DNA of 44,504 bases, taken from positions 1 through 44,504 of the forward strand of contig CAMYLV010000016.1 of assembly GCA_947259495.1 (NCBI GenBank). The letters are read 5' to 3'. This DNA comes from an uncultured Desulfobacterales bacterium. Lineage in GTDB: Bacteria; Desulfobacterota; Desulfobacteria; Desulfobacterales; JAHEIW01. The notes below the pieces were generated by a model. It worked only from the letters and a program-made list of their open reading frames with translations. It was not told the DNA's origin and ran no database searches. This document shows positions 5,640 through 23,040 of this stretch, one piece after another (within the stretch, counting starts at the first letter, position 1; every line of letters starts with the position of its first letter). A program made the position numbers and the translations under genes.

Positions 5640-5698
5640 TTTATCCTCCTTTTTAAATTTTTTGCTTGCTTTTAATGCCAAAATTTGAAACTACGTTT

Positions 5699-5875: not shown

Positions 5876-6625
5876 ATGCTACTGGAAGGCAAAAATGCGT
5901 TGGTGACCGGAGGTTCACAGGGAATAGGTGCGGCCGCCTCACTCGAACTGGCCAGCGAGGGAGCAAATGTTTGCCTGACATACCGCAAACACGAAGCCGA
6001 AGCCATCAAATATGCGGAAGAAATTCAGGCAATGGGCCGCAAGGCCCTCGCGGTGCAATGTGATATCGCTTCCTTTAGCGACGCTGAAAATGTGGTCAAA
6101 GCCGCCGTTGAAGCGTTCGGCAGTCTGCACATTTTGGTCAACAACGCCGGCATGAACTGGGACGGGGTGTCCTGGAAAATGACCGAAGAACAATGGGATC
6201 GGGTATTGGAGGTCAATCTGAAAGGCTATTTTAACTTCACCCGCCATGTGGCCCCGCTTTTTAAGGAGCAAAAATACGGCAAGATTATCAACGTGACCTC
6301 CATTAACGGGTTGCGGGGCAAATTCGGCCAGACCAATTATTCTGCATCCAAGGCCGGTATCATTGGATTCACCAAAGCACTTGCAAAGGAACTGGGTGCC
6401 TTTGACGTCACGGTTAACGCCGTGGCCCCCGGTCTGATCGAAACCGCGATGCTTAAGGAATCCGAAGCCAGAGATAAAATTATCGATATGGCCATGGCTG
6501 AAAGCGCCCTTAAACGGGTTGGACAGCCCGAAGACCTTGCCTATCTGGTGAGCTTTCTGGCATCTGACAAGGCTAAACACATCACCGGGGAAGTTATTAA
6601 AGTTGACGGCGGTCAATATATCTAG
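5876..6625 (+). CDS. Short-chain dehydrogenase/reductase, probable 3-hydroxyacyl-CoA dehydrogenase
   Basis: A 249-residue classical SDR: the cofactor loop TGGSQGIG near residue 12, NNAG near residue 88, the catalytic Ser (TSING, ~142) and the YSASK Tyr/Lys pair (~155-159), and a C-terminal ITGEVIKVDGG. The sequence looks FabG-like. Its position at the head of the ring-cleavage operon suggests it oxidises a hydroxyacyl-CoA intermediate: 3-hydroxypimelyl-CoA made by Oah, or 2-hydroxycyclohexanecarboxyl-CoA as for BadH/AliE. Which one cannot be decided here. A GGAGGA site lies just upstream of the ATG. The stop codon touches a 144-bp inverted-repeat element. Confidence 0.85.
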   Translation: MLLEGKNALVTGGSQGIGAAASLELASEGANVCLTYRKHEAEAIKYAEEIQAMGRKALAVQCDIASFSDAENVVKAAVEAFGSLHILVNNAGMNWDGVSWKMTEEQWDRVLEVNLKGYFNFTRHVAPLFKEQKYGKIINVTSINGLRGKFGQTNYSASKAGIIGFTKALAKELGAFDVTVNAVAPGLIETAMLKESEARDKIIDMAMAESALKRVGQPEDLAYLVSFLASDKAKHITGEVIKVDGGQYI

Positions 6626-6800: not shown

Positions 6801-7967
6801 ATGGGAAAAGTAGCGATTGTCGGAGTCGGACAGAGTACATTTGTGAGAAGTTACCCGGGCTCTATCCGGGAGCTGGTATTTGAGGGATTCAAGGAGGCCA
6901 TGCAGGATGCGCAGATGAGCACCACGGATATCGATGCTTCGGTCATCTGCTCGGCACCCGAATACGACAAACAGCGGTCACCGGCCGGTGTTTTTGCGGA
7001 ATATTTAGGCTTGAACCCACAGCCGACTTTTTATGTCGAAACCCTGTGCTCGTCGAGCAGCACCGGACTAAAACTCGCCTATTCGCTGGTCAAAGCGGGA
7101 CTGCACGATGCGGTGGCGGTGATCGGATTTCAAAAAATGTCGGAAATCAGTTCTTCCGAATCCCAGGAGCGCATGGGCCGGGGAGCTGACATTCAGTGGG
7201 AAAGCCCCTTTGGCACGATGATGCCGGCTTACTATGCCATGTACGCCAAAGCCCATATGAAAAAATACGGCACCACCTTAGACGATCTGGCACTGATCCG
7301 GGTTAAGGCGGCAACTTACGGTCAATTAAATGATCGCGCTGTCTACCGCAAGCCGGTTGAGTTTGAGATGTTTTCAGATCCGGAAAACCGCATGGCCGGC
7401 CCGGTGGCCAGTCCGCTGCGCGTGGGAGATTGCTGTGCCAATGCCGATGGCAGCTCCTGCATTGTCGTTGCCAGTGAAGAAAAAGCCAAATCCTTTTCGA
7501 AAAAACCGGTCTGGATTTTGGGAGTAGGTGCAGCAACCACCAGTGTCAATTTGGCCGGCAGAGATTTGTTTACGGGATTAAGCGTTGCTGAAAAGGCAGC
7601 CCAGCAAGCCTATCAGATGGCCGGCGTGGGTCCCAAAGACATCGATGTTGCCGAAGTACATGATTGTTTTACGATCGCGGAAATGATGGCCTATGAAAAT
7701 CTAGGGTTTGCCAACCCGGGTGAAGGCAAGGAATTGATCAGAGCCAAAGAGACCTATAAGGAAGGCAGCATTCCGGTGAATGTCGATGGCGGTCTTTTAT
7801 CCAAAGGCCACCCCATTGGAGCTACCGGTGGATCCCAGATCCGCACCATCGTCTTGCAACTCAGAGACGAGGCCGGCAATATCCAGGTTAAGAATCCGGA
7901 AATCGGGCTGGTTCATAACATCGGCGGTGTGGGGCTGTATGGAAACGTGACTATTTTGGGCCGCTAG
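6801..7967 (+). CDS. SCP2/lipid-transfer-type thiolase (acyl-CoA acetyltransferase)
   Basis: A 388-residue thiolase of the non-decarboxylating SCP2-like branch. The nucleophilic Cys83 lies in ETLCSSSSTGLKLA; the catalytic histidines are in EVHDCFTIAEMMAYE and in GGLLSKGHPIGATGGSQI; a C-terminal HNIGGVGLYGNV closes the active site. In this operon the expected role is CoA-dependent cleavage of 3-oxopimelyl-CoA to glutaryl-CoA and acetyl-CoA, or a comparable 3-oxoacyl-CoA (inference). It is followed by an OB-fold/zinc-ribbon gene, the pairing known from BbsA/BbsB and steroid-degrading thiolases, where the small protein is an essential subunit. GAAAGAGGTAG precedes the ATG. Confidence 0.9.
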   Translation: MGKVAIVGVGQSTFVRSYPGSIRELVFEGFKEAMQDAQMSTTDIDASVICSAPEYDKQRSPAGVFAEYLGLNPQPTFYVETLCSSSSTGLKLAYSLVKAGLHDAVAVIGFQKMSEISSSESQERMGRGADIQWESPFGTMMPAYYAMYAKAHMKKYGTTLDDLALIRVKAATYGQLNDRAVYRKPVEFEMFSDPENRMAGPVASPLRVGDCCANADGSSCIVVASEEKAKSFSKKPVWILGVGAATTSVNLAGRDLFTGLSVAEKAAQQAYQMAGVGPKDIDVAEVHDCFTIAEMMAYENLGFANPGEGKELIRAKETYKEGSIPVNVDGGLLSKGHPIGATGGSQIRTIVLQLRDEAGNIQVKNPEIGLVHNIGGVGLYGNVTILGR

Positions 7968-8098: not shown

Positions 8099-8536
8099 AT
8101 GATGAGTCAAAAAAAAGATGTCGATGATCGATTCAAACAATTCGGTACGGTCAGCTTCACTTCGATTACCAAAACAAACGATTTTATCGATTACCTGAAA
8201 GACAACAAGGTCATGGGAACCCGATGCAAAGATTGCGGATTGTCTTTCTTCCCGCCACGGGCCGATTGCCATAAGTGTCTGGCCAGTAACATGGAGTGGT
8301 TTGAAGTCAGCGGCAAAGGCAAACTGGTAAGCTACAGCAAACTGCAATATGCACCCATTGGATTCGAAAAAGATGTTCCCTACTGCATCGCCCTTCTGGA
8401 TTACGGTGACTATAAAGTGTTTGGCAGAATTGCCAAAGACCTGACAGACGAAGATATCCAGGTGGGCATGGAGATGCAAACTGTCGTCAATGAACTGCCC
8501 AGTGGGCAGCTGAACTACGTATTCGTTAAAGCATAA
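8099..8536 (+). CDS. OB-fold/zinc-ribbon (DUF35) thiolase partner
   Basis: A 145-residue protein of the ChsH2/DUF35 type. A rubredoxin-like zinc ribbon is formed by four cysteines in GTRCKDCGLSF and RADCHKCLAS (residues ~41-60), followed by an OB-fold starting GKGKLVSYSKLQYAP. Such proteins bind tightly to SCP2-like thiolases or MaoC hydratases and shape the acyl-CoA tunnel; BbsA in toluene degraders is the closest functional analogue. Two adjacent ATG codons (8099 and 8102) are possible starts, and GGAG precedes them. It is separated from the thiolase gene by only a repeat element, so the two are almost certainly one functional unit. Confidence 0.88.
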   Translation: MMSQKKDVDDRFKQFGTVSFTSITKTNDFIDYLKDNKVMGTRCKDCGLSFFPPRADCHKCLASNMEWFEVSGKGKLVSYSKLQYAPIGFEKDVPYCIALLDYGDYKVFGRIAKDLTDEDIQVGMEMQTVVNELPSGQLNYVFVKA

Positions 8537-8771: not shown

Positions 8772-9542
8772 ATGAGCAAATATCAGCATCTGGAAGTGGA
8801 TAATACGGACGGGGTCGCGCGGATTACTTTCGATCGGCCCAAACACAATGTTTTAGACATTGAAATGATGAATGAACTAATCGCCGAACTGGGAGGCCTC
8901 GCGGCTGACGATGAACTTAAATGCCTGGTGATCAATGGCGCAGGAGCCAGTTTTTGCGCCGGTGTTGAAGTCGCCGATCACAAGCCGGAAAATGTCAACC
9001 GGATGATTCAGACCTTCAACCGCGTGTTAGAACTGATTGACCGGCTCGAGATCCCCGTCGTCGCTTCGGTGCAAGGTGCCTGTCTGGGCGGCGGCATGGA
9101 GGTTGCCATTGCCTGCGACATCATTGTGGCAGCCCAAAGTGCGCTGTTCGGCCAGCCTGAAATCAAGCTCGCATTTTTACCGCCTTACGCGGCCATACGG
9201 TTGCCTCACCTGGTGGGTCCCGCGAAGGCAATTGAAATCTGCACCACCGGCAAACGCTACAGCGCTGAAGAAGCCCGGCAGATGGGAATGGTTTGTTATG
9301 CTGTCACCGATGATCAGCTGGCCGATACCACCGATAGGCTCGTTAAGGAAATTCAATACAACAGCCCGCTCATTATACGATTGAATAAACAGGCGGTCAA
9401 AAAGCACCTGGGTTTACCGTTCCCGCAGGCCATCGAAAGCGTCAGCGATCTTTTTCTGAACACATTGATGAAAACCGAAGACGTGCTGGAAGGTATCAAA
9501 AGCTTCGAAGAAAAACGCAAACCGGTTTGGAAGAACAGGTAA
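8772..9542 (+). CDS. dch/bamR: Cyclohexa-1,5-diene-1-carbonyl-CoA hydratase
   Basis: A 256-residue crotonase-family hydratase that adds water to the dienoyl-CoA product of benzoyl-CoA reductase to give 6-hydroxycyclohex-1-ene-1-carbonyl-CoA, the substrate of Had. Features: the CoA-binding/oxyanion region GASFCAGVEVADH, the segment GACLGGGMEVAIACDIIVA, SALFGQPEIKLAFLPPYAA, and a C-terminus (EDVLEGIKSFEEKRKPVWKN) close to Thauera Dch, where the end reads VEGLKAFLEKRSANWENR from memory. Ordinary enoyl-CoA hydratases lack the LGGGMEVA...FLPP combination. With had and oah in the same locus all three enzymes from diene to ring opening are present. The gene begins shortly after a repeat element; no strong ribosome site was seen. 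Confidence 0.9.
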   Translation: MSKYQHLEVDNTDGVARITFDRPKHNVLDIEMMNELIAELGGLAADDELKCLVINGAGASFCAGVEVADHKPENVNRMIQTFNRVLELIDRLEIPVVASVQGACLGGGMEVAIACDIIVAAQSALFGQPEIKLAFLPPYAAIRLPHLVGPAKAIEICTTGKRYSAEEARQMGMVCYAVTDDQLADTTDRLVKEIQYNSPLIIRLNKQAVKKHLGLPFPQAIESVSDLFLNTLMKTEDVLEGIKSFEEKRKPVWKNR

Positions 9543-9688: not shown

Positions 9689-11728
9689 ATGTCACAGATA
9701 AAAAAAATTGCAGTTATCGGTGCGGGTAATATGGGCAGCGGTATCGCCCAAAAAATTGCCCAGGAAGGCATCAACGTCGTTATAGTGGATATGAAGGAAG
9801 AATTTGTCGAACGCGGCATTAATACCATCCGGCAAACACTGAAAGAAGCCGTTGAGCGCAAGATTCTTGGCCCGGAACAGGTTCACGATATCCTCTCACG
9901 CATCATCGGCACCTGCGATTTTGAAATAGTGGCCGACGCCGACCTGGTCATTGAAGCCGTATTTGAAGACAAGCAGGTTAAATTTGATCTTTTTGATAAA
10001 CTGGATCGGATCTGCTCGGAGAAGACCATTCTGGCAACCAACACTTCCAGTTTTTACGTTCACGAATTTGCTGAAAAAACCGCCCGCCCGGATCGCTTTG
10101 TGGGACTGCATTACTTCTATCACCCGGCTAAAAATCGTCTGCTGGAAGTCATTCCACACGAAAAAACCAGCGCCGAAACCCTGGAAAAATCACTTCTGGC
10201 AGCCAAGCTTCACGGTAAAACTGCCATCGTGGTCAAAGATGCGCCCGGCTTTGCCGTCAACCGCTTCTTTGTGCCGTTTTTAAACGAAGCCGCCCGTATG
10301 CTGGAAGAAGGCGTGGCCGATATTCCCACCATTGAAGAGGCCGCCAAACAGGCGTTTAAAATCGGCATGGGGCCTTTTGAGCTCATGAATGTTACCGGTA
10401 TCCCCATCGCTGTGCACGCCTCGACCACCCTGGGAAACGAACTGGGGTCATTTTATGCCACGGCCGAGATCATTAAAACCCAGAAAAATAAAAATGAAAA
10501 CTGGGATCTAAGCGGCGATGTGGACGAAGACAAACTCCAGGCTGTTAAGGATCGTTTTTACGGCGTGTGCCTCGGGGTGGCGGCGGCGCTGGTAGATGAA
10601 GGTGTTGCTTCCATCGAGGACACCGATCGGGGGGCAAAAATCGGTCTGCGCTGGCTGATGGGACCCTTTGAAATCATGAATAAGATCGGCATCGGAAAGA
10701 CCTACAAAGCCGTGGCGGCCATTACCCAAAAATACCCTGATTTTAAGATGCCGCAGGTTCTCGCTCAGCAATATGAGATCGGCAAACCGTTTGCGTTTAA
10801 TTTTGTGGATCTGGAAGTCAAAGATGCCGTCGCTTATATCACCATCAACCGCCCCGAAGTGATGAATGCCTTAAACGAAACGGTGGTGGCGCAACTGAGA
10901 CAGCAGTTTGAAGAAGCCGAAGCGAATTCTGATGTCAGGACCATTGTATTTCAGGGCGCCGGCAAGGCCTTTGTGGCCGGGGCGGATATTAGGTATTTTG
11001 TGGACAAGATTAAAGCGGATCAAATAGCTCAGATCGCTGATTTCACCCGCAAGGGTCACGAGCTGCTCATTGATATCGAAAATTCAGACAAACTGACAAT
11101 TGCCCTGCTCGACGGTCTGAGTTTAGGCGGCGGCAGTGAGCTCGCCCTGGCCTGTCAGGCCATTATCGCCACGCCTGCCGGGTCCATGGGGTTTCCGGAA
11201 ACCGGAATCGGCATCTTTCCAGGTCTGGGGGGTATGCTGCGCATGGCCCGTTTTACCGGACCGGAGCTTGCCAAATATTACGTCTTTACCGGCAGCCCCA
11301 TCCGTGCTGACGATGCCCATAAGCTTGGCATCGTTACGCGTCTGGTAGCGCCGGCTGAGGTGGCTTCCGCCATAACCGAATTGGGGTCGAAAGACAAATC
11401 AGACAAATACCGACAGCGTGAAATCCCTGAGCAATTTAAACCGCTGGCCCAATTGTGCAGCAGCGAAAATGCAGCCCGACTCTTGAACGGACAACGGCCC
11501 GAGGGCTTGCCGGGTGAAATGGCAGCCAAAACAGCCAAGATAATCGGCTACAAAGCACCGCTGGCGCTCAAAATCGCTAATGAAATTATCGATGAACAGG
11601 TCGGAAAATCAATTGACGCAGCGGTGGAAATAGAGCTGGCGCGCCTGAACGATATTTTCAGCACGGCCGATGCCCTGGAAGGGCTTTCAACTGTTGGTCG
11701 CAAGAAGCCTGAATATAAAGGAGCGTGA
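9689..11728 (+). CDS. Fused 3-hydroxyacyl-CoA dehydrogenase / enoyl-CoA hydratase
   Basis: A 679-residue bifunctional beta-oxidation protein with the dehydrogenase first and the hydratase last, the reverse of FadB. The N-terminal Rossmann motif IGAGNMGSGIAQ (~8-19) is followed by the NTSSF and GLHYFYHPA segments and two 3HCDH C-terminal repeats (GFAVNRFF...FKIGMGPFELMN and GVCLGVAAALVDEG...GLRWLMGPFEIMN). From ~residue 370 a crotonase domain begins (VAYITINRPEVMNALN), with FVAGADI, LGGGSELALAC and PETGIGIFPGLGG carrying the two expected glutamates. It should hydrate and oxidise a 2-enoyl-CoA to a 3-oxoacyl-CoA, here plausibly 2,3-dehydropimelyl-CoA to 3-oxopimelyl-CoA or crotonyl-CoA to acetoacetyl-CoA. 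It overlaps functionally with the SDR gene upstream. Confidence 0.93.
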   Translation: MSQIKKIAVIGAGNMGSGIAQKIAQEGINVVIVDMKEEFVERGINTIRQTLKEAVERKILGPEQVHDILSRIIGTCDFEIVADADLVIEAVFEDKQVKFDLFDKLDRICSEKTILATNTSSFYVHEFAEKTARPDRFVGLHYFYHPAKNRLLEVIPHEKTSAETLEKSLLAAKLHGKTAIVVKDAPGFAVNRFFVPFLNEAARMLEEGVADIPTIEEAAKQAFKIGMGPFELMNVTGIPIAVHASTTLGNELGSFYATAEIIKTQKNKNENWDLSGDVDEDKLQAVKDRFYGVCLGVAAALVDEGVASIEDTDRGAKIGLRWLMGPFEIMNKIGIGKTYKAVAAITQKYPDFKMPQVLAQQYEIGKPFAFNFVDLEVKDAVAYITINRPEVMNALNETVVAQLRQQFEEAEANSDVRTIVFQGAGKAFVAGADIRYFVDKIKADQIAQIADFTRKGHELLIDIENSDKLTIALLDGLSLGGGSELALACQAIIATPAGSMGFPETGIGIFPGLGGMLRMARFTGPELAKYYVFTGSPIRADDAHKLGIVTRLVAPAEVASAITELGSKDKSDKYRQREIPEQFKPLAQLCSSENAARLLNGQRPEGLPGEMAAKTAKIIGYKAPLALKIANEIIDEQVGKSIDAAVEIELARLNDIFSTADALEGLSTVGRKKPEYKGA

Positions 11729-12827: not shown

Positions 12828-12922
12828 TTGACACGAATTTAAAAAATAGCTAAAAAAAAGCAGATAAATTAAATACGCCAATTAGGCCTTCAAATACAAA
12901 TAAATTGATAAAGGATGTTGCC

Positions 12923-14794
12923 ATGCACAAACTACTCACCAAAAATCCAGGTCAAAAAATGCTGCTGCTGGGCAATGAAGCCATTGCCAGGGGCGCAATC
13001 GAAGCGGGTGTTGCAGTTGCCAGTACCTACCCGGGCACACCCTCTTCCGAAATTTCTTTGAATTTTTTTCAGATGGCCCAGGAAAGCGATCTGTATTTTG
13101 AATACAGCACCAATGAAAAGGTAGCCATGGAAGTGGCGGCTGCAGCGGCCAATTCCGGCTTGCGCAGCATGTGTGTCATGAAGCATGTGGGCGTAAATGT
13201 CGCCGCAGACGCGCTGATGACACTGGCCTACGTGGGTGTCAAAGGCGGAATGGTCGTGCTTACTGCTGACGACCCCTATATGTTTTCCAGTCAAAATGAG
13301 CAGGACAACCGCTACTATGCCAAACTGTCGGGGCTACCGCTGGTGGAACCATCGAGCGTGGAAGAAGCCAAAGATCTGATTGCCTATGCTTTTGAGATCT
13401 CTGAAAAACTGCAGGAACCGGTCCTTTTTCGCACCACTACCCGCATCAACCACTCCTCCGCCATTGTCACCCTGGGCAAAATAAAGGTACCCCAGACCAA
13501 AGGCGATTTCGTTAAAGATCCTTTCAATCTGGTCACCGTGCCGGCTGTTTCCAGGAAATTGCATGTTAAACTCCTGGAAAACATAGAAAAGGCAAAAGAA
13601 TTCTCGGAAGCCTCGCAGTATAATTTCATCACCGGCAATGGGAAATGGGGTATCATTTGCAATGGGGTCAGCTACAATTACGCATCAGACGCCATTAAAG
13701 AATTAGATATCGCCGATAATATCAGGTTTCTGCGAATCGGATTTTCTTACCCCATGCCCGAAAAAATAATTAAGCCCTTTTTGAAGGCATGTGAAAAAGT
13801 GCTGATCATCGAAGAAGGCGAACCCTATATGGAAGAACAGGTCAAGGCCTTTGCCCAGGAAGAAGGCCTAATCCTGCCGATCCGCGGAAAAGCCAAGGAC
13901 CTGTTTAGCCGCCTTTACGAATACGACCCCGCACAGGTAAGAGAAAATATCGCCCGGTTTTTCGAAGTACCTTATACACCCGCCGTTAAACCGGATATTT
14001 CCGATGTCCCGGAATTGCCCCAGCGGCCGCCTACCCTGTGCGCCGGTTGTTCCCATCGCGCCACTTACTATGCCGTTAAAAAAGCGGCCGAAGGCCTCGG
14101 CACCATTTATCCCACTGACATCGGGTGTTATACCCTCGGTGTGCTGCCACCGCTTTCAACAGCGGATTTCCTCTTGTGTATGGGATCATCGGTCGGCACG
14201 GGTTGCGGTTTTTCAGCCTCTACCGATAAGAAAGTCATTTCCTTTATCGGCGATTCTACTTTTTTCCACTCCGGCATCCCCGGTCTGGTCAACGCCGTTT
14301 TTAACAATCATAATTTTACCCTGGTCATTCTGGACAACAGTACCACGGCGATGACCGGACATCAGCCCCATCCAGGCGTTGACATGCAAGATTTCAACCT
14401 GACAGGCTATGGCCGGGTATCGATTGAAAAAGTTGTCCGAGCCATCGGGGTACCCCACGTGGAGATCATCAAACCCTATCGGGTCAATAAGAGCATCGCG
14501 GCCCTCAAGGAGGCCATCGATTACGAGGGCGTATCGGTCATCATATCCAAAGAAGCCTGCACCCTGTATGCCCAGAGCCTGAAAAAAGCCAGAGGCAAGC
14601 CCTTTTACATTAACGAAAAATGCAAGGATCACCGCGAGTGCGTCAACGAACTGGCCTGCCCGGCGTTCTACATCGAAGGCGAAAGAGTCCACATCAACGC
14701 AGATCTGTGTTCAGGCTGCGCTGTTTGCGCCCAAATTTGCCCGGAAAAAGCAATCGTGCCGGTACGGTCGAAAGAAAAAATCAGATCTTCATAA
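12923..14794 (+). CDS. iorA: Indolepyruvate ferredoxin oxidoreductase, alpha subunit
   Basis: 623 residues: an N-terminal 2-oxoacid:ferredoxin oxidoreductase pyrimidine-binding domain (LLGNEAIARGAIEAGVAVASTYPGTP), a transketolase-like centre, a TPP-binding domain (GDSTFFHSGIPGLVNAVFNN, then DNSTTAMTGHQPHPG), and C-terminal ferredoxin-type clusters (CKDHREC...ACP and CSGCAVCAQICP). With IorB it oxidatively decarboxylates aryl-pyruvates to aryl-acetyl-CoA, reducing ferredoxin. The ATG at 12923 is seven bases after AAGGA; a TTG at 12905 overlaps that site and is less likely. Association with an aryl-CoA ligase and an ATP-driven reductase suggests either aromatic amino-acid breakdown or supply of low-potential electrons (inference). 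Confidence 0.93.
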   Translation: MHKLLTKNPGQKMLLLGNEAIARGAIEAGVAVASTYPGTPSSEISLNFFQMAQESDLYFEYSTNEKVAMEVAAAAANSGLRSMCVMKHVGVNVAADALMTLAYVGVKGGMVVLTADDPYMFSSQNEQDNRYYAKLSGLPLVEPSSVEEAKDLIAYAFEISEKLQEPVLFRTTTRINHSSAIVTLGKIKVPQTKGDFVKDPFNLVTVPAVSRKLHVKLLENIEKAKEFSEASQYNFITGNGKWGIICNGVSYNYASDAIKELDIADNIRFLRIGFSYPMPEKIIKPFLKACEKVLIIEEGEPYMEEQVKAFAQEEGLILPIRGKAKDLFSRLYEYDPAQVRENIARFFEVPYTPAVKPDISDVPELPQRPPTLCAGCSHRATYYAVKKAAEGLGTIYPTDIGCYTLGVLPPLSTADFLLCMGSSVGTGCGFSASTDKKVISFIGDSTFFHSGIPGLVNAVFNNHNFTLVILDNSTTAMTGHQPHPGVDMQDFNLTGYGRVSIEKVVRAIGVPHVEIIKPYRVNKSIAALKEAIDYEGVSVIISKEACTLYAQSLKKARGKPFYINEKCKDHRECVNELACPAFYIEGERVHINADLCSGCAVCAQICPEKAIVPVRSKEKIRSS

Positions 14795-14972: not shown

Positions 14973-15569
14973 ATGGAAACAAAAAGACTGATCATCGTAG
15001 CTGTTGGCGGACAGGGAAACCTGCTGGCATCCAAAGTGCTCGGAGAAGCGGCGCTGCTGGCCGACATCCCCGTGCGCATGAGTGAAATCCACGGCATGGC
15101 TCAAAGGGGCGGTGTCGTTGAATCTGCAGTGGTTTTTGGCGATGCGGAAAGTACGATTATTTCAGATGGCGAAGCGGATGTGCTGTTGGGCTTTGAGCCC
15201 TCGGAAACGCTGCGCGCGCTAAACAAATGCAATGCCGAAACCGTGGTAATTACGAATACGGCCCCGCTGCCGCCGTTCACGGTGGCCATCGGCAAAGGCA
15301 CTTATCCGGATTTAAACGAGCTTCAGAAATTGATCCGCCAAAAAACCGCCCGAATGGTGGCTTTTGATGCCCAGGCCCTGGCAAAACAGGCCGGCAATTT
15401 CATGTCTTTGAATATGGTCTTGCTGGGCTCGTTGATTCAGACCGGAATTATGCCGGTGTCGGCCGAAAATGTTAAGAAGGCCATTCGGACATCCACTAAA
15501 AAGGCTTTTGTCGATATCAATATCAAGGCCTTTGAGCTCGGCTTTGAAGCCGCCGCCAAGGCGGCATGA
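14973..15569 (+). CDS. iorB: Indolepyruvate ferredoxin oxidoreductase, beta subunit
   Basis: A 198-residue gamma-type 2-oxoacid:ferredoxin oxidoreductase domain. It opens with the glycine-rich VAVGGQGNLLASKVLGEAA, then MSEIHGMAQRGGVVESAVVFG, which contacts TPP and the alpha subunit in this family, and GFEPSETLRALNKC. Length is normal for IorB. The 178-bp gap from iorA holds only a repeat, and both genes are on one strand, so they should form the heteromeric enzyme. Confidence 0.92.
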   Translation: METKRLIIVAVGGQGNLLASKVLGEAALLADIPVRMSEIHGMAQRGGVVESAVVFGDAESTIISDGEADVLLGFEPSETLRALNKCNAETVVITNTAPLPPFTVAIGKGTYPDLNELQKLIRQKTARMVAFDAQALAKQAGNFMSLNMVLLGSLIQTGIMPVSAENVKKAIRTSTKKAFVDINIKAFELGFEAAAKAA

Positions 15570-15716: not shown

Positions 15717-17024
15717 ATGCCCTGGAACGATAAGTTTGAATGCATGCCGGTGGATGCGCTTAAAAAATTTCAGTTGGAGAAACTGAAAGAAACCGTCGCA
15801 TGGGTATCGGAGAAGGTGCCGTTCTATAAAAATAAGTTCAAGGAAATGGGTGTCGCGGCCAGCGATCTCAAAAACCTGGAAAATGTCGCTAAACTTCCGT
15901 TTACCGTCAAAACGGATCTCAGAGACAATTACCCCTTTGGCCTGTGCGCCGTGCCTTTGCAAGAAGTCGTCAGAGTGCATGCGTCTTCGGGCACAACCGG
16001 CAAACCCATCACCGGCCCTTACACCCAGGAGGATTTGGAGCAATGGATCGAATGCATGGCCCGTACCCTCCATGCTGCCGGTATCCGCAAAGAAGATATG
16101 GTCCAAAACGCATACGGTCACGGTCTTTTTACCGGTGGTCTCGGGTTCCATCAGGGAGCAACGGCCATCGGCTGCACGGTGGTGCCGACCGGCGCCGGAA
16201 TGACCGAACGTCAGATTACCATCATGCAGGACTTTAAATCTGATGTTCTGTTTGCGACACCGTCTTATGCCCTGACCATTGCCGAGCGCGCCAAAGAACT
16301 AAAGGTCGATATTCGCAAGCTTCCATTGCGGGTCGGGGTGTTCGGCGCCGAACCCTGGACAGAGGCCATGCGGCAGGAGATCGAAGAACGGATGGGGATC
16401 AAAGCCCAGGAAGCATATGGATTAACCGAGCTCTGCGGACCCGGTGTCGCATATGACGCCGCTGACCAAAACGGCCTGTACATCAATGAAGACCATTTTC
16501 TGGCTGAAATCGTGGACCCGCAGACCCTGGAGCCCCTGCCGGAAGGTGAAAAAGGCGAGCTCATTTTTACGTCTTTGCAGCGCCGCGCCATGCCCATGAT
16601 TCGTTATCGAACCAAAGACATTACACGCCTGTGGCGCGAGCCAGGCCACGAGGGACGAACCTTTATTCGAATGGATAAAATCTACGGCCGCTCTGACGAC
16701 ATGCTCATCATCAGCGGTGTGAACGTCTTTCCTTCTCAAATTGAAGCCCTCCTGCTGGAAATTGAAGAGGTCGAACCGCAATACCAGTTGATCGTGAGCA
16801 AAAAAGGGTATCTGGACCATCTCAGCGTTCGGGTGGAAGGCAAAAAAGAAATTTATGAGGCCGGTAAAGACCGAAGGCATGAAATCGAAGGCAAAATCGC
16901 AGGTCACATCAAAGGCATGATGGGAATTGGCGTTGATGTGGAGGTGGTCGATGCGAAAGCCATTGCCCGCAGCGAAGGCAAAGCCGTGCGTGTCATAGAT
17001 GAACGCCCCAAACAGGAAAGGTAG
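15717..17024 (+). CDS. paaK: Phenylacetate-CoA ligase family enzyme
   Basis: A 435-residue AMP-forming aryl-CoA ligase of the PaaK type: an N-terminal helical segment (LEKLKETVAWVSEKVPFYKNKF), the P-loop RVHASSGTTGKP (~85-97), VGVFGAEPWTEAMR, the A5-like motif EAYGLTELCGPG, YRTKDI, GRSDDMLIISGVNVFPSQIE and a short PaaK-type C-terminal domain. It should convert an aromatic acid such as phenylacetate to its CoA thioester with ATP. A near-ideal AAAAGGAGGAAG ribosome site precedes the ATG. Next to iorAB it could capture arylacetates or return hydrolysed acyl groups to the CoA form. The gap before it carries a weak hairpin around 15613-15655. Confidence 0.9.
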   Translation: MPWNDKFECMPVDALKKFQLEKLKETVAWVSEKVPFYKNKFKEMGVAASDLKNLENVAKLPFTVKTDLRDNYPFGLCAVPLQEVVRVHASSGTTGKPITGPYTQEDLEQWIECMARTLHAAGIRKEDMVQNAYGHGLFTGGLGFHQGATAIGCTVVPTGAGMTERQITIMQDFKSDVLFATPSYALTIAERAKELKVDIRKLPLRVGVFGAEPWTEAMRQEIEERMGIKAQEAYGLTELCGPGVAYDAADQNGLYINEDHFLAEIVDPQTLEPLPEGEKGELIFTSLQRRAMPMIRYRTKDITRLWREPGHEGRTFIRMDKIYGRSDDMLIISGVNVFPSQIEALLLEIEEVEPQYQLIVSKKGYLDHLSVRVEGKKEIYEAGKDRRHEIEGKIAGHIKGMMGIGVDVEVVDAKAIARSEGKAVRVIDERPKQER

Positions 17025-17106: not shown

Positions 17107-18051
17107 ATGAGTGCTGCGTCCAATTTTAGTCCCCAATCGTTTGCGGTGGTCGGGGCCGGGCCGGTGGGGTGCATTGTTGCCTGTTTTCTGGCCAAGGGCG
17201 GTTATGAGGTCACCCTTTGTGATGTCATCCCGGACCTGCTGGCACCGGCGTTGGACCCTGGAATTATTCTTGAAGGCGCCGAAAACATCCAGCACAAGGT
17301 GACCCGAACCTGCACCCATGTCGATGAACTGGTTGATTACGACCCGGACGTGGTCTTCATCACCGTCAAAGCCAATGCGCTGCCGCTGATTGCTTCCGCC
17401 ATTGAAAGCTTTCACAAAGAGGGTCTGGCGATTGTCAGCTGGCAAAATGGAATTGATACGGAACTTGAACTGGCAAAAACACTGGGCAAGACGGATGTAA
17501 TGCGCGCTGTTGTCAATTACGGATGCGGTCTGGCGGGACCCGGGCATGTCAAATTGCCCTTTCACCACCCGCCGCATTACATTCAGGAACTGGATCCTCA
17601 ATCCCGCAATTCGGCGATTGGCATTGCCGATGCGCTGAGCAAATGCGGCCTGGAAACCGAGCACACCGACAACATTATTTCAATGGTTTGGCGCAAGAGT
17701 GTTATGAATGCCTGCATGAATCCGGTGTGTGCCGTTACCGGACTGACAATGTCGCACGCGATGAACGATCCGATCGTCTATCAGATTGTCGATGCACTGG
17801 TAAAAGAATGCATCCAGGTTGCCCGTGCCAATGAAATTGATCTGGGATGGGATTTTTATCCCCATGCAATGGCGTACATGCGCAATGCCGGTGACCACAA
17901 ACCGTCTATGTTGATGGATATTGAAGCCGGCCGGCGCACGGAAATTGATTTTATCAACGGTAAGTTTGTCGAATACGGCGCCCGCACAGCAACCCAGACG
18001 CCGTATAACAACACCCTCAGCGCGCTGGTAAAAGGGTTAGAGTCTAAATAG
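17107..18051 (+). CDS. Ketopantoate reductase (PanE/ApbA) family dehydrogenase
   Basis: 314 residues with the N-terminal nucleotide loop VVGAGPVGCIVACFLAKGG (~14-32), FITVKANALP, SWQNGIDTE, and a C-terminal helical domain with SMVWRKSVMNACMNPVCAVTG, the family's Lys/Asn catalytic region. PanE itself reduces 2-dehydropantoate; relatives reduce other 2-oxoacids to D-2-hydroxyacids, such as D-mandelate dehydrogenase. Location between an aryl-CoA ligase and a dehydratase/reductase activator makes a 2-oxoacid or 2-hydroxyacid role in this pathway more attractive than pantothenate synthesis (inference). GGAGAGG precedes the ATG. Confidence 0.82.
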   Translation: MSAASNFSPQSFAVVGAGPVGCIVACFLAKGGYEVTLCDVIPDLLAPALDPGIILEGAENIQHKVTRTCTHVDELVDYDPDVVFITVKANALPLIASAIESFHKEGLAIVSWQNGIDTELELAKTLGKTDVMRAVVNYGCGLAGPGHVKLPFHHPPHYIQELDPQSRNSAIGIADALSKCGLETEHTDNIISMVWRKSVMNACMNPVCAVTGLTMSHAMNDPIVYQIVDALVKECIQVARANEIDLGWDFYPHAMAYMRNAGDHKPSMLMDIEAGRRTEIDFINGKFVEYGARTATQTPYNNTLSALVKGLESK

Positions 18052-18122: not shown

Positions 18123-18905
18123 ATGAAATCAAAACCGTGCTATGCGGGTGTCGATGTGGGGGCATCGCGCACCAAAGTCGCCATCCTCGACACCAGTAAA
18201 AACCTGATCGGTCATGCGGTTAAGAAATCCGGCACCGACTTTACGGCCACCGCCGATGCCTGTCTTATATTGGCTTTAAAAATGGCCGGTAAGAAAAAGA
18301 GTGATATTAAAAATACCGTTTCAACCGGATACGGCCGCAAAAACGTATCGTTTGCCCGGGATACCAAAACAGAAATTGGCTGCCATGCCAAAGGTTGTTT
18401 TCTGTACTTTCCATTTGCAACCACCATTATTGATATCGGCGGGCAGGACAACAAGGTCATTAAACTCGATCGATCAGGCAAGCGCACCGGATTTAAGATG
18501 AATCGCAAATGCGCCGCCGGCACCGGAGCCTTTCTGGAGGAAATGGCCATGCGACTGGATGTCTCCCTGGAAGAGATGAACGGCCTCGCCAGTCAATCTA
18601 AAAATATGATCAAACTGGGCAGCTTCTGTACGGTTTTTTCGGCGACCGAGGTTCTGGAAAATATCCGCCAGGGTAAAAACCTGCCGGACATCGTTAAAGG
18701 TGTCTACTATTCGATGATTAAGCGCGTTCTGGAGATGGACGCCCTTACGGAAAAAGTCGTCATGACCGGCGGTGTGGTGGCACACAACGCTTTTATGGTC
18801 AAAATGACCGAAGAGATGATTGGCAGAAAAATCCTCGTTCCGGATTATCCGCAGCTCACCGGGGCCATCGGCGCAGCGTTGTACGCGATGCAGAATAAGC
18901 CTTAA
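18123..18905 (+). CDS. ATP-dependent activator of 2-hydroxyacyl-CoA dehydratase/benzoyl-CoA reductase type (BadG/HgdC family)
   Basis: A 260-residue ASKHA-fold ATPase. It has phosphate-loop motifs GVDVGASRTKVAI and TIIDIGGQDNK, STGYGR, and the two cluster cysteines Cys130 (NRKCAAGTGAFLEEMA) and Cys169 (GSFCTVFSATEV). Their spacing of 39 equals that of the HgdC activator cysteines, so a dimer-bridging [4Fe-4S] cluster is expected. These proteins use ATP to push an electron onto a partner double-cubane or [4Fe-4S] enzyme. The partner is probably the gene 210 bp downstream. A single activator and single partner resemble the YjiL/YjiM and DCCP-R/DCCP pairs more than four-subunit BcrABCD. Confidence 0.9.
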   Translation: MKSKPCYAGVDVGASRTKVAILDTSKNLIGHAVKKSGTDFTATADACLILALKMAGKKKSDIKNTVSTGYGRKNVSFARDTKTEIGCHAKGCFLYFPFATTIIDIGGQDNKVIKLDRSGKRTGFKMNRKCAAGTGAFLEEMAMRLDVSLEEMNGLASQSKNMIKLGSFCTVFSATEVLENIRQGKNLPDIVKGVYYSMIKRVLEMDALTEKVVMTGGVVAHNAFMVKMTEEMIGRKILVPDYPQLTGAIGAALYAMQNKP

Positions 18906-19035: not shown

Positions 19036-19114
19036 AAAAGCCTGAGACCATGTTCCCTGGTCTTGACGTTTGAATTATCGGATATTGGAAAGTGCGTAAA
19101 TGTGGGGACATGTC

Positions 19115-20365
19115 ATGTCAGATGAAAAAAAACCTGTCAGAAAAAAATTAAAAGCTGCGTCTGAAGCCAGCCGCTTTATGGCAAATTATTATCACGAGCT
19201 GGATGCGGCTTCCCAAAAAGGTCAACCCAAGATTGCCTGGTGCACCAGTGTGGGCCCGGCGGAAATTCTCCGGGCTTTAGGGTTTCTGGTATACTTTCCG
19301 GAAACGCATGCCGCCATGCTAGGCGCCACGCGCATGTCCACCGAACTGATTCCGGAAGCCAATGCCCTGGGTTATTCACCGGACATCTGCTCTTATCTCA
19401 CCGCCGATATCGGCGCCTTTCTAAGAGGGGTGACGCCTCTCAGCCGGATTTACAAGGGAATTGAAGCTATTCCCAAACCCGATGTACTGGTCTTCAACAC
19501 GAATCAATGCCGCGACGTGCAGGATTGGTTTGCCTGGTACGGCAAAAAGTTCGATGCCCCCGTGCTGGGCATCTATACCCATCGAAATGTCGGCAAAATC
19601 ACCGAAGCTCATGTCGCTTCAATCGCCAAGCAGATGCAGGAACTCATCGAGCCGCTGGAGAAGGTCTCCGGCCGGTCATTTGACCTTGATCGGTTAAAGC
19701 GCGTTGTCGCGCTTTCCAGAGCGTGCTCTGAGCTGTGGCGCAACGTTCTTGAAACGGCAAGCGCCAAACCGTCTCCACTGACATTTTTTGACGGCACCAC
19801 CCTCATGGGCCCGGCGGTGGTGGGTCGCGGCACCCGGGAAGCGGTCGATGTCTATAAAATTTTGCTGGCCGAATTAAATGACCGCATCAAAGACAAGGAA
19901 GGTGCGATCGAAGATGAGCGCTTCCGGATCTACTGGGACGGCATGCCGGTTTGGGGCCGATTGCGAGCTCATTCGGATCTTTTCTCAGGATTGAAGGCCA
20001 GTGTGCTGGCTTCGACCTACTGCAACAGCTGGATCTTTTCAGCCCTGGATGAGAACGATCCGTTCAACAGCATGGCCAGAGCGTACACGGAACTTTTTAT
20101 CGTGCGTTCTGACGATGAAAAAGAAACTTACATCAAAAAGATGCTTGAATTGTTCAAGGTGGACGGCGTCATCTATCACGATGCCAAAACCTGTCCCAAT
20201 AATACCAACTGCCGTTACGGGATGCCGCAACGCCTCGAGCAGCAAACCGGTCTGCCCAGTTTAACAATTAATGCCGATCTCAATGACATGCGGATGATTT
20301 CAGATGAACAGACCCAAACAAATGTTGAGGCATTTATAGAACAGCTGGAAGAAAACCAAACCTGA
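19115..20365 (+). CDS. Lone HgdB/BcrB-family subunit, double-cubane-type reductase or dehydratase
   Basis: About 416 residues of the 2-hydroxyacyl-CoA dehydratase D-component / benzoyl-CoA reductase superfamily. Cysteines at 43 (IAWCTSVGPAEIL), 92 (SPDICSYLTADIGAFL) and 132 (NTNQCRDVQDWF) lie in the N-terminal lobe where cluster ligands are expected; TYCNSW (~302) and KTCPNNTNCRYG (~360) follow. The EILRALGFLVYFPE and PVLGIYTHRN segments are family-typical. Classical dehydratases and benzoyl-CoA reductases need two such subunits; only one is encoded here, so a homodimer like the double-cubane protein DCCP/YjiM is most likely. Substrate unknown. I prefer the ATG at 19115 (after GGGGA) over 19100. 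Confidence 0.82.
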   Translation: MSDEKKPVRKKLKAASEASRFMANYYHELDAASQKGQPKIAWCTSVGPAEILRALGFLVYFPETHAAMLGATRMSTELIPEANALGYSPDICSYLTADIGAFLRGVTPLSRIYKGIEAIPKPDVLVFNTNQCRDVQDWFAWYGKKFDAPVLGIYTHRNVGKITEAHVASIAKQMQELIEPLEKVSGRSFDLDRLKRVVALSRACSELWRNVLETASAKPSPLTFFDGTTLMGPAVVGRGTREAVDVYKILLAELNDRIKDKEGAIEDERFRIYWDGMPVWGRLRAHSDLFSGLKASVLASTYCNSWIFSALDENDPFNSMARAYTELFIVRSDDEKETYIKKMLELFKVDGVIYHDAKTCPNNTNCRYGMPQRLEQQTGLPSLTINADLNDMRMISDEQTQTNVEAFIEQLEENQT

Positions 20366-20442
20366 GTTGAGCGTTACAAATTTTATAAAAGGAAAATTTA
20401 TTAAAAGGGAATTCTTCCAATTTTATTTTTAAAATTTGTAAC
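20365..20442. repeat. Hairpin repeat after the double-cubane gene, copy 1
   Basis: GTTACAAATTTTA (20373-20385) is perfectly complementary to TAAAATTTGTAAC (20430-20442), with a ~44-bp A+T-rich interior. The first ~39 bases (GTTGAGCGTTACAAATTTT onward) recur at 20567-20605 with one mismatch. It may end the upstream transcript, though no clean T run follows. Confidence 0.65.
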
Positions 20443-20714: not shown

Positions 20715-22268
20715 ATGGGTTATTGGATGAATTTAGGTCAGATCCAAAAGATAAATGCAAAGAAGTTCCCGGATACAGCGGCCTTGAAAGACGCGAATCG
20801 CGCGTTTACTTATCCGCAAATGAACAGCCGCATCAACAAACTGGCCAACAGCCTAACCTCCCTGGGCTTGCAGAAAGGCGATAAAGTTGCGGTGTTGCTT
20901 GAAAATTGCATCGAAATCTGTGAGCTGTTCATGGCAACAGCCAAAGTTGGGATCATTATCGTGCCCATCAACTTTCGCTTAGTGTCTGCCGAGGTGGAAT
21001 ATATTGTCAACAATTCAGACGCCAAGGCCATGGTCGTCCATGATCAATTTGCGGCCACGGTGGAACCCATCCGCTCAAATCTTAAAAACATTGTTGCTCA
21101 AAATTATATTATCGTCGGACGTCCTCAGGACGGATATCGACCCTATGAGGAATTCATCAACGCTTCAGCGGACACCGAGCCTGAAACTGAAGTTGCCCCC
21201 GGCGATACCTGGATTCTGATCTACACCTCCGGCACCACCGGAAAACCCAAGGGCGTCATTCGTTCCCACGAATCGCATATTGCCTATTACCTGCACAATG
21301 CCGTGGACTTCGGGTTTAATGAACACGATGTATGCTTAAATGTCATGCCTCTGTGCCATATCAACTCCATCTTTTTTACTTTCACGTTTCTGTATGTCGG
21401 CGGATCGGCCTATATCCACCCGGCCTTAAATTTTAAGCCCGAAGAAATTCTTAAAATCATCGAAAACGAAAAAATCACCTTTGTTTCCCTGATTCCAACC
21501 CATTATAACTTAATTCTCAATGCCCCCGAAGATGCCAAAAAGCGCGATGTCAGCTCAATTCGCAAGCTGCTGTGTTCTTCGGCACCCGGCCGCAAAAGCA
21601 TGAAACAGGCGGTTATTGAATTTTTTCCGGATGTTAAACTTTACGAAGCCTATGGTTCGACCGAGGCCGGCATGGTTACCATCCTGAAACCCGAATACCA
21701 GATGAGCAAACTGGGCTCAATCGGGTTTGAATGCATCGGTTCTGATTTTTTAAAAATCCTTGATTTGGACGGCAATGAAGTGCCTGCCGGAGAAATCGGT
21801 GAGTTATACTCACGCGGTCCCATGCTGTTTGATGAATACTACAAGCTACCCGAGCAAACCGGGGAATCGTTTAAAGACGGTTTTTTTTCAGCCGGTGATA
21901 TGGCCAGACAGGATGAAGATGGCTTCTATTATCTGGTGGATCGTAAAAAAAACATGATCATCACCGGCGGGGAAAATGTATACCCCAGCGAGGTGGAGGA
22001 AGTGGTCGGCAACATCGAGGGCGTTTTCGACTGTGCGGTCATCGGACTGCCCGATGAAAAATGGGGAGAAAAAGTTAGCGCGGTGATCATCCGAAAACCG
22101 GGTTTTGATAACAGCAAGTTAAATGAGCAGGATATCATTCAAACCTGCAAGGGCAAAATGGCGGGTTACAAGTGCCCCAAACAGGTGATCTTTATCGGTG
22201 AAAATGATATGCCCCGCACCGGCACCGGAAAAATCCTGCACCGCATCCTAAGAGAGCAGTTCGGCTAA
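20715..22268 (+). CDS. AMP-dependent acyl-CoA synthetase
   Basis: 517-residue class I adenylate-forming ligase with all core motifs: YTSGTTGKPKGVIRSH (~170-185, ATP loop), LYEAYGSTEAG, FFSAGDMARQDEDGFYYLVDR, KKNMIITGGENVYPSEVEEV and the C-terminal lysine motif PRTGTGKILHRILRE. It forms acyl-AMP then acyl-CoA. The carboxylate cannot be told from sequence; fatty, cyclohexane-carboxylic or branched acids are all possible. GGAGGT precedes the ATG at 20715. The stop is one base before the nitrilase-family start, so the two are co-translated. With IcmF nearby, activation of a branched short-chain acid is an appealing guess. Confidence 0.9.
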   Translation: MGYWMNLGQIQKINAKKFPDTAALKDANRAFTYPQMNSRINKLANSLTSLGLQKGDKVAVLLENCIEICELFMATAKVGIIIVPINFRLVSAEVEYIVNNSDAKAMVVHDQFAATVEPIRSNLKNIVAQNYIIVGRPQDGYRPYEEFINASADTEPETEVAPGDTWILIYTSGTTGKPKGVIRSHESHIAYYLHNAVDFGFNEHDVCLNVMPLCHINSIFFTFTFLYVGGSAYIHPALNFKPEEILKIIENEKITFVSLIPTHYNLILNAPEDAKKRDVSSIRKLLCSSAPGRKSMKQAVIEFFPDVKLYEAYGSTEAGMVTILKPEYQMSKLGSIGFECIGSDFLKILDLDGNEVPAGEIGELYSRGPMLFDEYYKLPEQTGESFKDGFFSAGDMARQDEDGFYYLVDRKKNMIITGGENVYPSEVEEVVGNIEGVFDCAVIGLPDEKWGEKVSAVIIRKPGFDNSKLNEQDIIQTCKGKMAGYKCPKQVIFIGENDMPRTGTGKILHRILREQFG

Positions 22269-22269
22269 T

Positions 22270-23040
22270 ATGAGAGTCACCAGTGTTCAGCTGGCGATGA
22301 CCGATCAGCTGAAAGAAATAAATGTAGAGCACGCGCTCGGGCTGATCGATCAGGCGCCGCCCAGTGATCTGTTTCTGCTGCCGGAAATCTGGCCCTGCGG
22401 GTTTTTCTCTTTTGATCGCTATAAACGCGACAGCGAAGCCATCGATGGTCCGATCGTCACGGCATTTAAAGCAGCGGCACGCAAACGGAAGTGCCATATT
22501 TTCATGGGCAGCATGGTGGAACGCGACGGCAGTCACCTTTACAACACCAGCATCTTATTAAATCCCACCGGCGAAATTGCGGCACACTACCGTAAAATCC
22601 ATTTGTTTGGCTACCAGTCCCAGGAAACCGCCATTCTTGAACCGGGCGAAGACGTCGTTGTCGCCGATACCCCCTGGGGTAAAAGCGGGCTTTCAACCTG
22701 CTATGACCTGCGTTTCCCCGAGCTTTATCGCCGCATGGTCGATGCGGGGGCGACATTTTTTTTAGTCGCTTCTGCCTGGCCGAAAGTTCGCCTGGATGCC
22801 TGGAGACTGTTTAACCGCTGCCGGGCTCACGAAAACCTCGCTTTTCTTATCTCGTGCAACTGCGCCGGTGCCAATCAGGGCAAAACATACGCCGGCCACA
22901 GCATGATCGTCGATCCCCTGGGCCAGGTGCTGGCTGAAGGCACCGCAGAAGAAGAATGGGTTAGCGCCGAAATTGACCCGGACCAGGTCGCTGCGGTTCG
23001 CCAGGATTTTCCGGCACTGGAAGACCGCAGACTGGTCTAA
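22270..23040 (+). CDS. Carbon-nitrogen hydrolase (nitrilase superfamily amidase)
   Basis: 256 residues with the Glu-Lys-Cys triad visible: Glu in LFLLPEIWPCG (~39), Lys in AHYRKIHLFGYQ (~113), Cys in GLSTCYDLRFPELYR (~143). The motif set is that of branch-10-like omega-amidases/predicted amidohydrolases rather than true nitrilases. It releases ammonia from an amide or carbamoyl group. The start lies one base after the ligase stop (TAATATG), which implies a coupled reaction: amide hydrolysis followed by CoA activation of the freed acid (inference). Confidence 0.88.
   Translation: MRVTSVQLAMTDQLKEINVEHALGLIDQAPPSDLFLLPEIWPCGFFSFDRYKRDSEAIDGPIVTAFKAAARKRKCHIFMGSMVERDGSHLYNTSILLNPTGEIAAHYRKIHLFGYQSQETAILEPGEDVVVADTPWGKSGLSTCYDLRFPELYRRMVDAGATFFLVASAWPKVRLDAWRLFNRCRAHENLAFLISCNCAGANQGKTYAGHSMIVDPLGQVLAEGTAEEEWVSAEIDPDQVAAVRQDFPALEDRRLV

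Follow-up and report, generated by a model that had tools for sequence, protein, structure and literature searches.

A lone PF06050 gene and its activator

The stretch of DNA analysed here (the window) comprises 44,504 nucleotides of contig CAMYLV010000016.1, from an uncultured Desulfobacterales bacterium (assembly GCA_947259495.1). It contains a single gene of family PF06050, from the BCR/HAD superfamily of benzoyl-CoA reductases and dehydratases, directly downstream of the only activator gene at the locus. The known two-subunit enzymes of this superfamily bind substrate with one protein and relay electrons with the other. The two genes are:

18123..18905, plus strand: ATP-dependent activator of the BadF/HgdC type, with cysteines 130 and 169 (PF01869 168.6 bits, TIGR00241 217.8 bits, both over cut-off)
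19115..20365, plus strand: lone PF06050 protein of the substrate-binding (HadB/BcrB/BzdO) type by profiles, alignment, fold and tree; the longest frame begins at 19100

The open frame 19100..20365 (+) encodes 421 amino acids and has an in-frame ATG at 19115. This codon corresponds to M6, which is almost invariant across 54 aligned members of the family, so 19115 is probably the true start. Residues are numbered here from 19100, and the Cys43, Cys92, Cys132 and approximately 360 of an earlier note on this DNA are therefore C48, C97, C137 and C365. The protein matches PF06050 at 222.8 bits (cut-off 28.4), which places it in the BCR/HAD superfamily. That the gene is real, as the earlier note assumed, is borne out by the intact frame, by this score and by cysteines kept in 96 aligned rows of >55% identity, more than chance would give. 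A promoter and terminator scan gave no excess over shuffled sequence. The gap at 20366-20714, between this gene and the ligase gene that follows, holds two copies of an approximately 40-base sequence (by eye); its position is occupied in many relatives by a gene for an ADP-forming acyl-CoA synthetase.

The activator is of the HgdC/BadF type by both profiles and by C130 and C169. Its nearest solved relatives are the activators of 2-hydroxyisocaproyl-CoA dehydratase (4eht) and 2-hydroxyglutaryl-CoA dehydratase (1hux), and also MbdQ. The earlier note had described these two cysteines as keeping the spacing of HgdC; the residues are present and 4eht and 1hux are among the best PDB matches, while the spacing itself is one that we take to be that of HgdC. 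A BadF-type activator gene is present in 33 of 36 family loci with at least 8 kb on each side, where a neighbour was defined by >30% identity over half its length (two of the 36, L069 and L070, are one contig in two bins).

In the source genome (G000; 4.44 Mb in 69 contigs, completeness 97%), the lone gene is the one PF06050 match that exceeds the cut-off. A further match, to another open reading frame (ORF), scores 21.9 bits, below the cut-off, and looks by eye like a universal stress protein. The earlier note's description of one cluster subunit with its own activator is supported. A bzd-type activator pair elsewhere in the genome (L110, G000:C2:300000-318000, at 8937-13439; BzdQ model 403 bits, cut-off 380.2) might have pointed to another PF06050 enzyme, an idea rejected because no second PF06050 gene over cut-off was found. 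The pair is accompanied by an NAD(P)H-oxidoreductase-like protein of 837 aa, BzdNO genes were not found in the genome, and close copies of the BzdQ-like protein occur in G002-G005 and G012.

To survey possible partners across the family, we collected PF06050 matches from the genomes of 37 of 80 named loci and from 16 of the 19 related gene-bearing genomes, which left 51 genomes after repeats were dropped (G040 and G044, the same as G003 and G005) together with matches below cut-off; many of the loci derive from metagenome-assembled genomes. Among the matches listed, none of 59 family members had another PF06050 match within 2.5 kb, compared with 109 of 136 other PF06050 matches (106 of the 123 longer than 850 bp). 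Of the 17 lone other matches >850 bp, seven fall in the clade of double-cubane proteins (DCCP-like) and ten lie outside the tree sample. Nine of the 51 genomes (G000, G001, G033, G037, G048, G056, G057, G060 and G069) have no other PF06050 gene over cut-off among the matches listed, and G000, G001, G033 and G037 are 93-97% complete. The relay PF06050 subunit that stands alongside the substrate-binding one in HadBC, FldBC and HgdAB is absent here. Across the family, among the matches listed, no relay partner accompanies the gene, which is unusual for the superfamily.

Place in the superfamily and cluster residues

The nearest NCBIfam model to the lone protein is that of HadB (NF052455, 2-hydroxyisocaproyl-CoA dehydratase alpha), at 227.6 bits under a cut-off of 750. 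It is followed by BcrB (TIGR02260; 157.6 bits, cut-off 486.55), BzdO (TIGR03191; 84.4 bits, cut-off 448.6) and the double-cubane model (NF040772; 69.5 bits, cut-off 350), none of which reaches its threshold. The predicted structure (mean predicted local distance difference test, pLDDT, 90.3 from a 54-sequence alignment) was compared with chains of HadB, BzdO, MbdO, DCCP and HadC. Its fold is closest to HadB (Z 50, root-mean-square deviation 1.7 over 393 residues), then to BzdO (Z 47), MbdO (Z 43), DCCP (Z 33) and HadC (Z 32), and Foldseek returned the same order of types.

The tree was built from 87 proteins of PF06050 loci of relatives plus L021 and L022, 22 family members, and HadB, MbdO and BzdO fragments, by a quick method without bootstrap; L150_1007 and L138_1 entered it as their C-terminal 420 and 400 residues. 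Relay-type and DCCP-like rows are separated from substrate-binding-type rows by a split of support 100, and the family forms a single clade (support 100) within the substrate-binding half, beside HadB, MbdO and BzdO. Its sister (support 84) comprises two sequences, L135 and L156, each with a relay-type neighbour; that of L156, which shares 54% identity with the L135 relay protein, extends beyond the fetched stretch. With a quick tree method and some long branches that meet, the sister group is not placed with certainty. For 35 of the 41 other substrate-type rows a relay-type row lies within 1 kb, the remainder being three solved proteins, L156 and two adjoining rows of L142.

By tree, NCBIfam scores and predicted fold, the lone protein belongs among the substrate-binding subunits of the HadB/BcrB/BzdO type. 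It is very probably not a double-cubane protein. The kinship with DCCP and YjiM that the earlier note had read from the single gene is not supported: DCCP-like rows, one of which scores 472 bits for the double-cubane model, lie across the support-100 split, and model score and fold point the same way. That note had also named, as the result that would count against it, a phylogenetic place inside BcrB or HgdA together with a partner gene elsewhere in the genome. The protein does fall in the HadB/BcrB-type half of the tree, and no second PF06050 gene over cut-off accompanies it in the genome.

Six cysteines are conserved in the family. Over the 96 rows, which include the window twice (L001, L003) and some genomes repeatedly (L004/L023, L006/L029, L069/L070), C97, C137, C209, C308 and C365 are present in 96 of 96 and C48 in 95; a relative of 53% identity (L019) keeps all six. 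C97, C137 and C365 align with the three cluster cysteines of the substrate subunit BzdO (C95, C128 and C380), which a passage of the published account gives as ligands of the catalytic aqua-[4Fe-4S] cluster. The positions of the BzdO active-site residues Glu65 and Tyr97 are kept as E68 and Y99, and the Glu column is gapped in relay-type and DCCP-like rows. In the column of BzdO His131 the lone protein has V140 (V in 21 of 22 family rows, I in one). This column is insecure, since HadB is aligned here with V and a passage of the published BzdO account gives it Ala; nor does His131 define the 3-methylbenzoyl-CoA reductase (MBR) type, as MbdO has F in that column.

The other three cysteines set the family apart to different degrees (counts over tree rows exclude four duplicates, with L160 and L161 copying L022 and L021). 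The residue at C308 is Cys in none of the 41 other substrate-type rows (one gap), in 11 of 11 DCCP-like rows and in 20 of 34 relay-type rows. C209 is shared with one of the 41 (L129) and so is not unique to the family, and C48 with five, including MbdO and the sister pair. According to a passage of its published account, the relay subunit BzdN has six cysteines at its [8Fe-9S] cluster. DCCP-like and relay-type rows have six Cys columns in common, which on the strength of their conservation are the presumed [8Fe-9S] ligands; the lone protein matches four of them, has C48 one column away from the fifth and is empty at the sixth, the DCCP-like C344 column. As this presumed set is incomplete, a full double cubane is not predicted, and a rewired cluster site is possible.

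Neighbouring genes and a proposed route to benzoyl-CoA

The gene occurs in many anaerobic bacteria and archaea that degrade aromatic rings, with loci in Desulfobacterota, Anaerolineae, Thermoplasmata, Ignavibacterium, Aminicenantes, Zixibacteria and others. The remaining genes of interest in the window, with their frequency in the 36 long-flank loci where counted, are:

3100..4242, minus strand: BamA, 6-oxocyclohex-1-ene-1-carbonyl-CoA hydrolase (TIGR03200 552 bits, cut-off 464.45)
4533..5681, minus strand: 6-hydroxycyclohex-1-ene-1-carbonyl-CoA dehydrogenase of the central benzoyl-CoA pathway (TIGR03201 481 bits, cut-off 338.65)
5876..6625, plus strand: short-chain dehydrogenase, possibly a 3-hydroxyacyl-CoA dehydrogenase (NCBIfam comparison)
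6801..7967, plus strand: thiolase, proposed aroylacetyl-CoA thiolase (NF004720 402 bits, below cut-off 420; 4/36 loci)
8099..8536, plus strand: small OB-fold/zinc-ribbon thiolase partner, by eye (no NCBIfam match at 1e-30)
8772..9542, plus strand: enoyl-CoA hydratase (TIGR03189 146 bits, below cut-off 292.5; 9/36 loci)
9689..11728, plus strand: fused 3-hydroxyacyl-CoA dehydrogenase/enoyl-CoA hydratase, proposed beta-oxidation step (PF02737, PF00378; 6/36 loci)
12905..14794, plus strand: indolepyruvate:ferredoxin oxidoreductase alpha, IorA (TIGR03336 790 bits, cut-off 650.9; 17/36 loci)
14973..15569, plus strand: indolepyruvate:ferredoxin oxidoreductase beta, IorB (TIGR03334 209 bits, cut-off 205.8; 16/36 loci)
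15717..17024, plus strand: ligase of the phenylacetate-CoA ligase (PaaK-like) type (TIGR02155 556 bits, below cut-off 646; 11/36 loci)
17107..18051, plus strand: ApbA/PanE-type reductase, proposed 2-oxoacid (arylpyruvate) reductase by inferred substrate (TIGR00745 195 bits, cut-off 141.35; 25/36 loci)
20715..22268, plus strand: AMP-forming acyl-CoA ligase, proposed to make aryllactyl-CoA (PF00501 289 bits; ligase in 25/36 loci)
22270..23040, plus strand: nitrilase-family amidase directly after the ligase, of uncertain membership in the module (PF00795 176 bits; one other locus, L066)

The PDB matches of the ApbA/PanE-type reductase are 2-dehydropantoate reductases. Another thiolase family occurs in 9 of the 36 loci, an ADP-forming acyl-CoA synthetase in 19 and the ring dehydrogenase type in 7. 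In the wider set of 101 family loci, in which the window is counted twice, some genomes recur and two homologues are distant, the clusters of the OB-fold protein and of the thiolase each span 7 loci. The earlier note had suggested that linkage to an aromatic regulon would be a clue to the substrate, and this clue is present: BamA, the ring dehydrogenase, IorAB and the PaaK-like ligase all lie in the window.

The window has a candidate enzyme for each step from an arylpyruvate to benzoyl-CoA via phenyllactyl-CoA and cinnamoyl-CoA. Phenylpyruvate would be reduced to phenyllactate by the ApbA-type reductase (D-2-hydroxyacid dehydrogenase activity is possible for enzymes of the PanE type), and phenyllactate would be converted to phenyllactyl-CoA by the ligase. 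The lone PF06050 protein with its activator would give cinnamoyl-CoA, which the hydratase and dehydrogenase would take through 3-hydroxy and 3-oxo intermediates for cleavage by the thiolase to benzoyl-CoA and acetyl-CoA. Phenylacetate could enter by way of the CoA ligase and then the indolepyruvate oxidoreductase run in reverse; anaerobes are able to carboxylate phenylacetate reductively.

We propose, with a probability of roughly one half, that the lone protein and its activator make up a one-gene aryllactyl-CoA dehydratase that would supply cinnamoyl-CoA for beta-oxidation to benzoyl-CoA. It would be a catalytic subunit working with its own activator and without an electron-relay subunit, presumably as a homodimer, and would carry out an ATP-started radical dehydration of phenyllactyl-CoA (or another aryllactyl-CoA) to a cinnamoyl-type enoyl-CoA. 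The family, its place in the tree, the lack of a PF06050 partner, the gene neighbourhood, the co-occurrence with BamA and the position in a Desulfococcus multivorans cluster (both below) are observed, and the homodimer, the reaction, the substrate and the direction of the oxidoreductase are inferred. According to a passage of PMC11971306, the activator in this superfamily delivers a single electron, for which ATP is spent, and the dehydratases reuse that electron over many turnovers, whereas in class I benzoyl-CoA reductases each electron costs ATP hydrolysis. Just occasional reduction would thus suffice for a dehydratase, and loss of the relay subunit is more believable in a dehydratase than in a reductase.

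A fuller version of this proposal is offered tentatively. One subunit might both bind the substrate and receive the activated electron through the rewired cluster, with C209, C308 and perhaps C48 serving as new ligands or hydrogen donors. The enzyme might then be the key step in converting phenylalanine, phenylpyruvate and phenylacetate, through phenyllactyl-CoA and cinnamoyl-CoA, to benzoyl-CoA in sulfate reducers, Geobacter, Anaerolineae and Thermoplasmata alike, with phenylacetate entering by the indolepyruvate oxidoreductase acting as a carboxylase.

If so, it would be a candidate for the step from phenylacetate or phenylpyruvate to benzoyl-CoA in strict anaerobes that have neither PadB nor PadEFGHI, a step called unclear in a passage of PMC5109826. 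Because phenylalanine is a common natural aromatic, such a route would bear on carbon turnover in sediments. From a conserved one-gene form one could also learn which parts of the two-subunit machinery are needed, and it would be a simpler enzyme for study.

Two further regions of the window are of note. A 1105-aa fused B12-binding/MeaB/methylmalonyl-CoA-mutase protein of IcmF layout is encoded at 24210-27527 beside a TetR-type regulator, and a PEP-synthase-like gene pair at 40895-43959 resembles phenylphosphate synthase subunits by eye, so that use of phenol is possible.

Weighing the proposal against alternatives and known systems

A link to physiology comes from Desulfococcus multivorans, where a family member (66% identical) lies in a region at approximately 2.776-2.797 Mb. 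The genes there are, in order, a hydratase/dehydrogenase, a thiolase, a CheY-like protein, two kinases, a TRAP transporter, two ligases, the family member, an activator, ApbA, an ACT protein, IorB and IorA (thiolase, regulators, transporter and ACT protein named by eye). At 2.770-2.778 Mb (L172, L171) two near-identical copies of a 680-aa fused hydratase/dehydrogenase lie 4 kb apart (2770112, 2776549). A passage of PMC5109826 reports that proteins of two adjacent clusters in this region are formed specifically on phenylacetate and phenylpyruvate, and that phenyllactate supports growth, with the step to benzoyl-CoA called unclear.

The chemical sequence itself has been put forward elsewhere. 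For the benzene culture BzS1, a 2026 paper hypothesised in one passage (PMC13416013) the conversion of 2-oxo-3-phenylpropanoate to 2-hydroxy-3-phenylpropanoyl-CoA, cinnamoyl-CoA and benzoyl-CoA as the fate of activated benzene. That route needs a phenyllactyl-CoA dehydratase, left unassigned in the passage, which also notes one singular gene with 30% identity to FldB and no detected protein product; this gene may be another family member. The sequence from phenylpyruvate to benzoyl-CoA via cinnamoyl-CoA is therefore already a published hypothesis, for benzene, and what would be new is the enzyme family and this use of it. No title or abstract describing a one-gene relative of the heterodimeric superfamily enzymes was found in the literature searched, a scope outside which most subscription papers lie.

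Co-occurrence with BamA counts in favour of the proposal. Of 40 related genomes, BamA (E <=1e-60) occurs in 18 of the 19 that carry the gene, a count that includes fragments (G008, G016) and a 53% homologue (G004), and in 2 of the 21 that lack it, with a Fisher value of 5.8e-8. It is also present in 32 of 35 further member genomes, over cut-off in 31.

Several points weigh against the proposed dehydratase. Passages of PMC5109826 assign Dmul_C24850-70, which overlap the family member or its neighbours (locus tags mapped by gene order alone), to the conversion of phenyllactate to phenylpyruvate, and the hydratase and thiolase to formation of phenylglyoxylate; they do not name the dehydratase as detected, and they give cinnamate a separate, specifically identified beta-oxidation set. 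The IorA beside the D. multivorans member is just 40% identical to that of the window, and there is no PaaK-like gene there. Of the 36 long-flank loci, IorA is absent from about half and the hydratase or the thiolases from about three quarters, and BamA lies inside the flanks in just one. The Fisher value for BamA ignores kinship, and the 35 further genomes, of which G048, G051 and G055 lack BamA, were picked for holding the gene (35 of the 37 searched for PF06050) and compared with no control set from the same phyla. Known dehydratases need two different subunits, which makes electron transfer in a homodimer a difficulty. Activator domains also occur in two long ORFs of the source genome (1467 and 1038 aa), which are candidate partners. 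One member, from Ignavibacterium (L064), has a C-terminal PF06050 fragment at 6363-6749, 3.4 kb upstream. That fragment lies among extra BadF genes and is possibly a remnant of a lost partner. Co-occurrence with IorA was set aside as evidence, since IorA is present in 39 of the 40 relatives and its presence in a genome says nothing.

Among the alternatives to the proposed dehydratase, the best placed, though unlikely, is an ATP-driven aryl-CoA reductase, either a minimal one-gene benzoyl-CoA reductase or a reductive hydroxybenzoyl-CoA dehydroxylase feeding the benzoyl-CoA pathway. MbdO of 3-methylbenzoyl-CoA reductase is among the lone protein's neighbours in the tree (support 93), the BamA co-occurrence is strong, and D. 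multivorans also grows on 2-hydroxybenzoate by a route not described in the passages of PMC5109826 cited here. However, all three genomes checked have another benzoyl-CoA reductase. In the source genome, the start of bamB lies at a contig end (G000:C11:1-360) and is 71% identical over 120 aa to bamB of D. multivorans; the D. multivorans ORF itself scores 1250 bits against solved BamB. The rest of the class II reductase cluster in the source genome probably lies in the gap that follows the end of G000:C11, and ring reduction need not depend on the lone PF06050 protein. In the third genome, from Thermoplasmatales, a gene of the BzdO clade forms a pair with a relay gene (L141). The scores against BcrB (157.6 of 486.6 bits) and BzdO and the V in the His131 column also speak against a reductase, and the ApbA and Ior neighbours indicate 2-oxoacids. 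A tungsten-enzyme gene of the aldehyde oxidoreductase (AOR) type, 75 kb into C16, was considered as BamB and rejected, its best solved matches being aldehyde oxidoreductases with BamB sixth. It is found 30 kb past the window (L167), in 9004-11500 together with a ferredoxin-like protein; another ferredoxin-like ORF is at 16321-16875.

Next, and doubtful, is a 2-hydroxyacyl-CoA dehydratase acting on a non-aromatic or other amino-acid-derived acid, such as a branched-chain or indole one. It would suit the nearest NCBIfam model, the IcmF-type mutase further along the window and the breadth of indolepyruvate oxidoreductases; the benzoyl-CoA genes and the D. multivorans region linked to phenylpyruvate and phenylacetate argue for an aromatic substrate instead. 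Ranked behind these, and improbable, is a two-subunit enzyme after all, with an unrecognised protein as partner or a relay subunit shared in trans. The large activator fusions of the source genome are of a kind that can carry a distant dehydratase-like domain, and 42 of the 51 surveyed genomes have other PF06050 genes among the matches listed; the nine without one stand against a second subunit, as do the neighbour families found in at least 17 of the 101 loci, which all match known enzyme families (rarer neighbours were covered in part). The least probable is a homodimeric DCCP-like enzyme with an [8Fe-9S] cluster in each subunit and a small or unknown substrate to reduce, for although the single gene with its own activator, C308 in a presumed ligand column and C48 one column from another would fit, the tree side, model score, fold, empty C344 column, kept E68 and Y99, and C48 in other substrate-type rows do not.

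Compared with known systems, the proposed dehydratase is most like HadBC with its activator and FldABC of Clostridium sporogenes, a phenyllactyl-CoA dehydratase and the working analogue here. It shares with them the HadB fold, three cluster cysteines, the activator type and the likely chemistry; it differs in the absence of a HadC/FldC-type subunit, in two additional invariant cysteines (C209, C308), in cluster loops of changed sequence (NTNQCRD, STYCNSW, KTCPNN) and in the beta-oxidation and benzoyl-CoA genes close by. FldABC is also the analogue in the passage of PMC13416013. BzdNO and MbdNO belong to the same superfamily, and the lone protein keeps the BzdO-like aqua-[4Fe-4S] ligands and the Glu65 position, but it has no BzdN/MbdN partner, one adjacent activator gene in place of two, V in the His131 column and scores far under the family cut-offs. 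DCCP and YjiM are alike in the single PF06050 gene with an activator and in one cysteine of a presumed ligand column, while the lone protein lies in the other half of the tree with an incomplete set of presumed ligands. The phenylacetate/phenylpyruvate clusters of D. multivorans share gene content and a 66% identical member, but the scheme published for them, in the passages of PMC5109826, runs via phenylglyoxylate with the last step open and does not propose dehydration of phenyllactyl-CoA. The BzS1 route has the same chemical sequence, but for benzene, and the passage of PMC13416013 makes no link to this family, a missing partner or the use of phenylalanine or phenylacetate. We regard the lone protein as a variant within the superfamily, distinct from HadB, BcrB, BzdO and DCCP.

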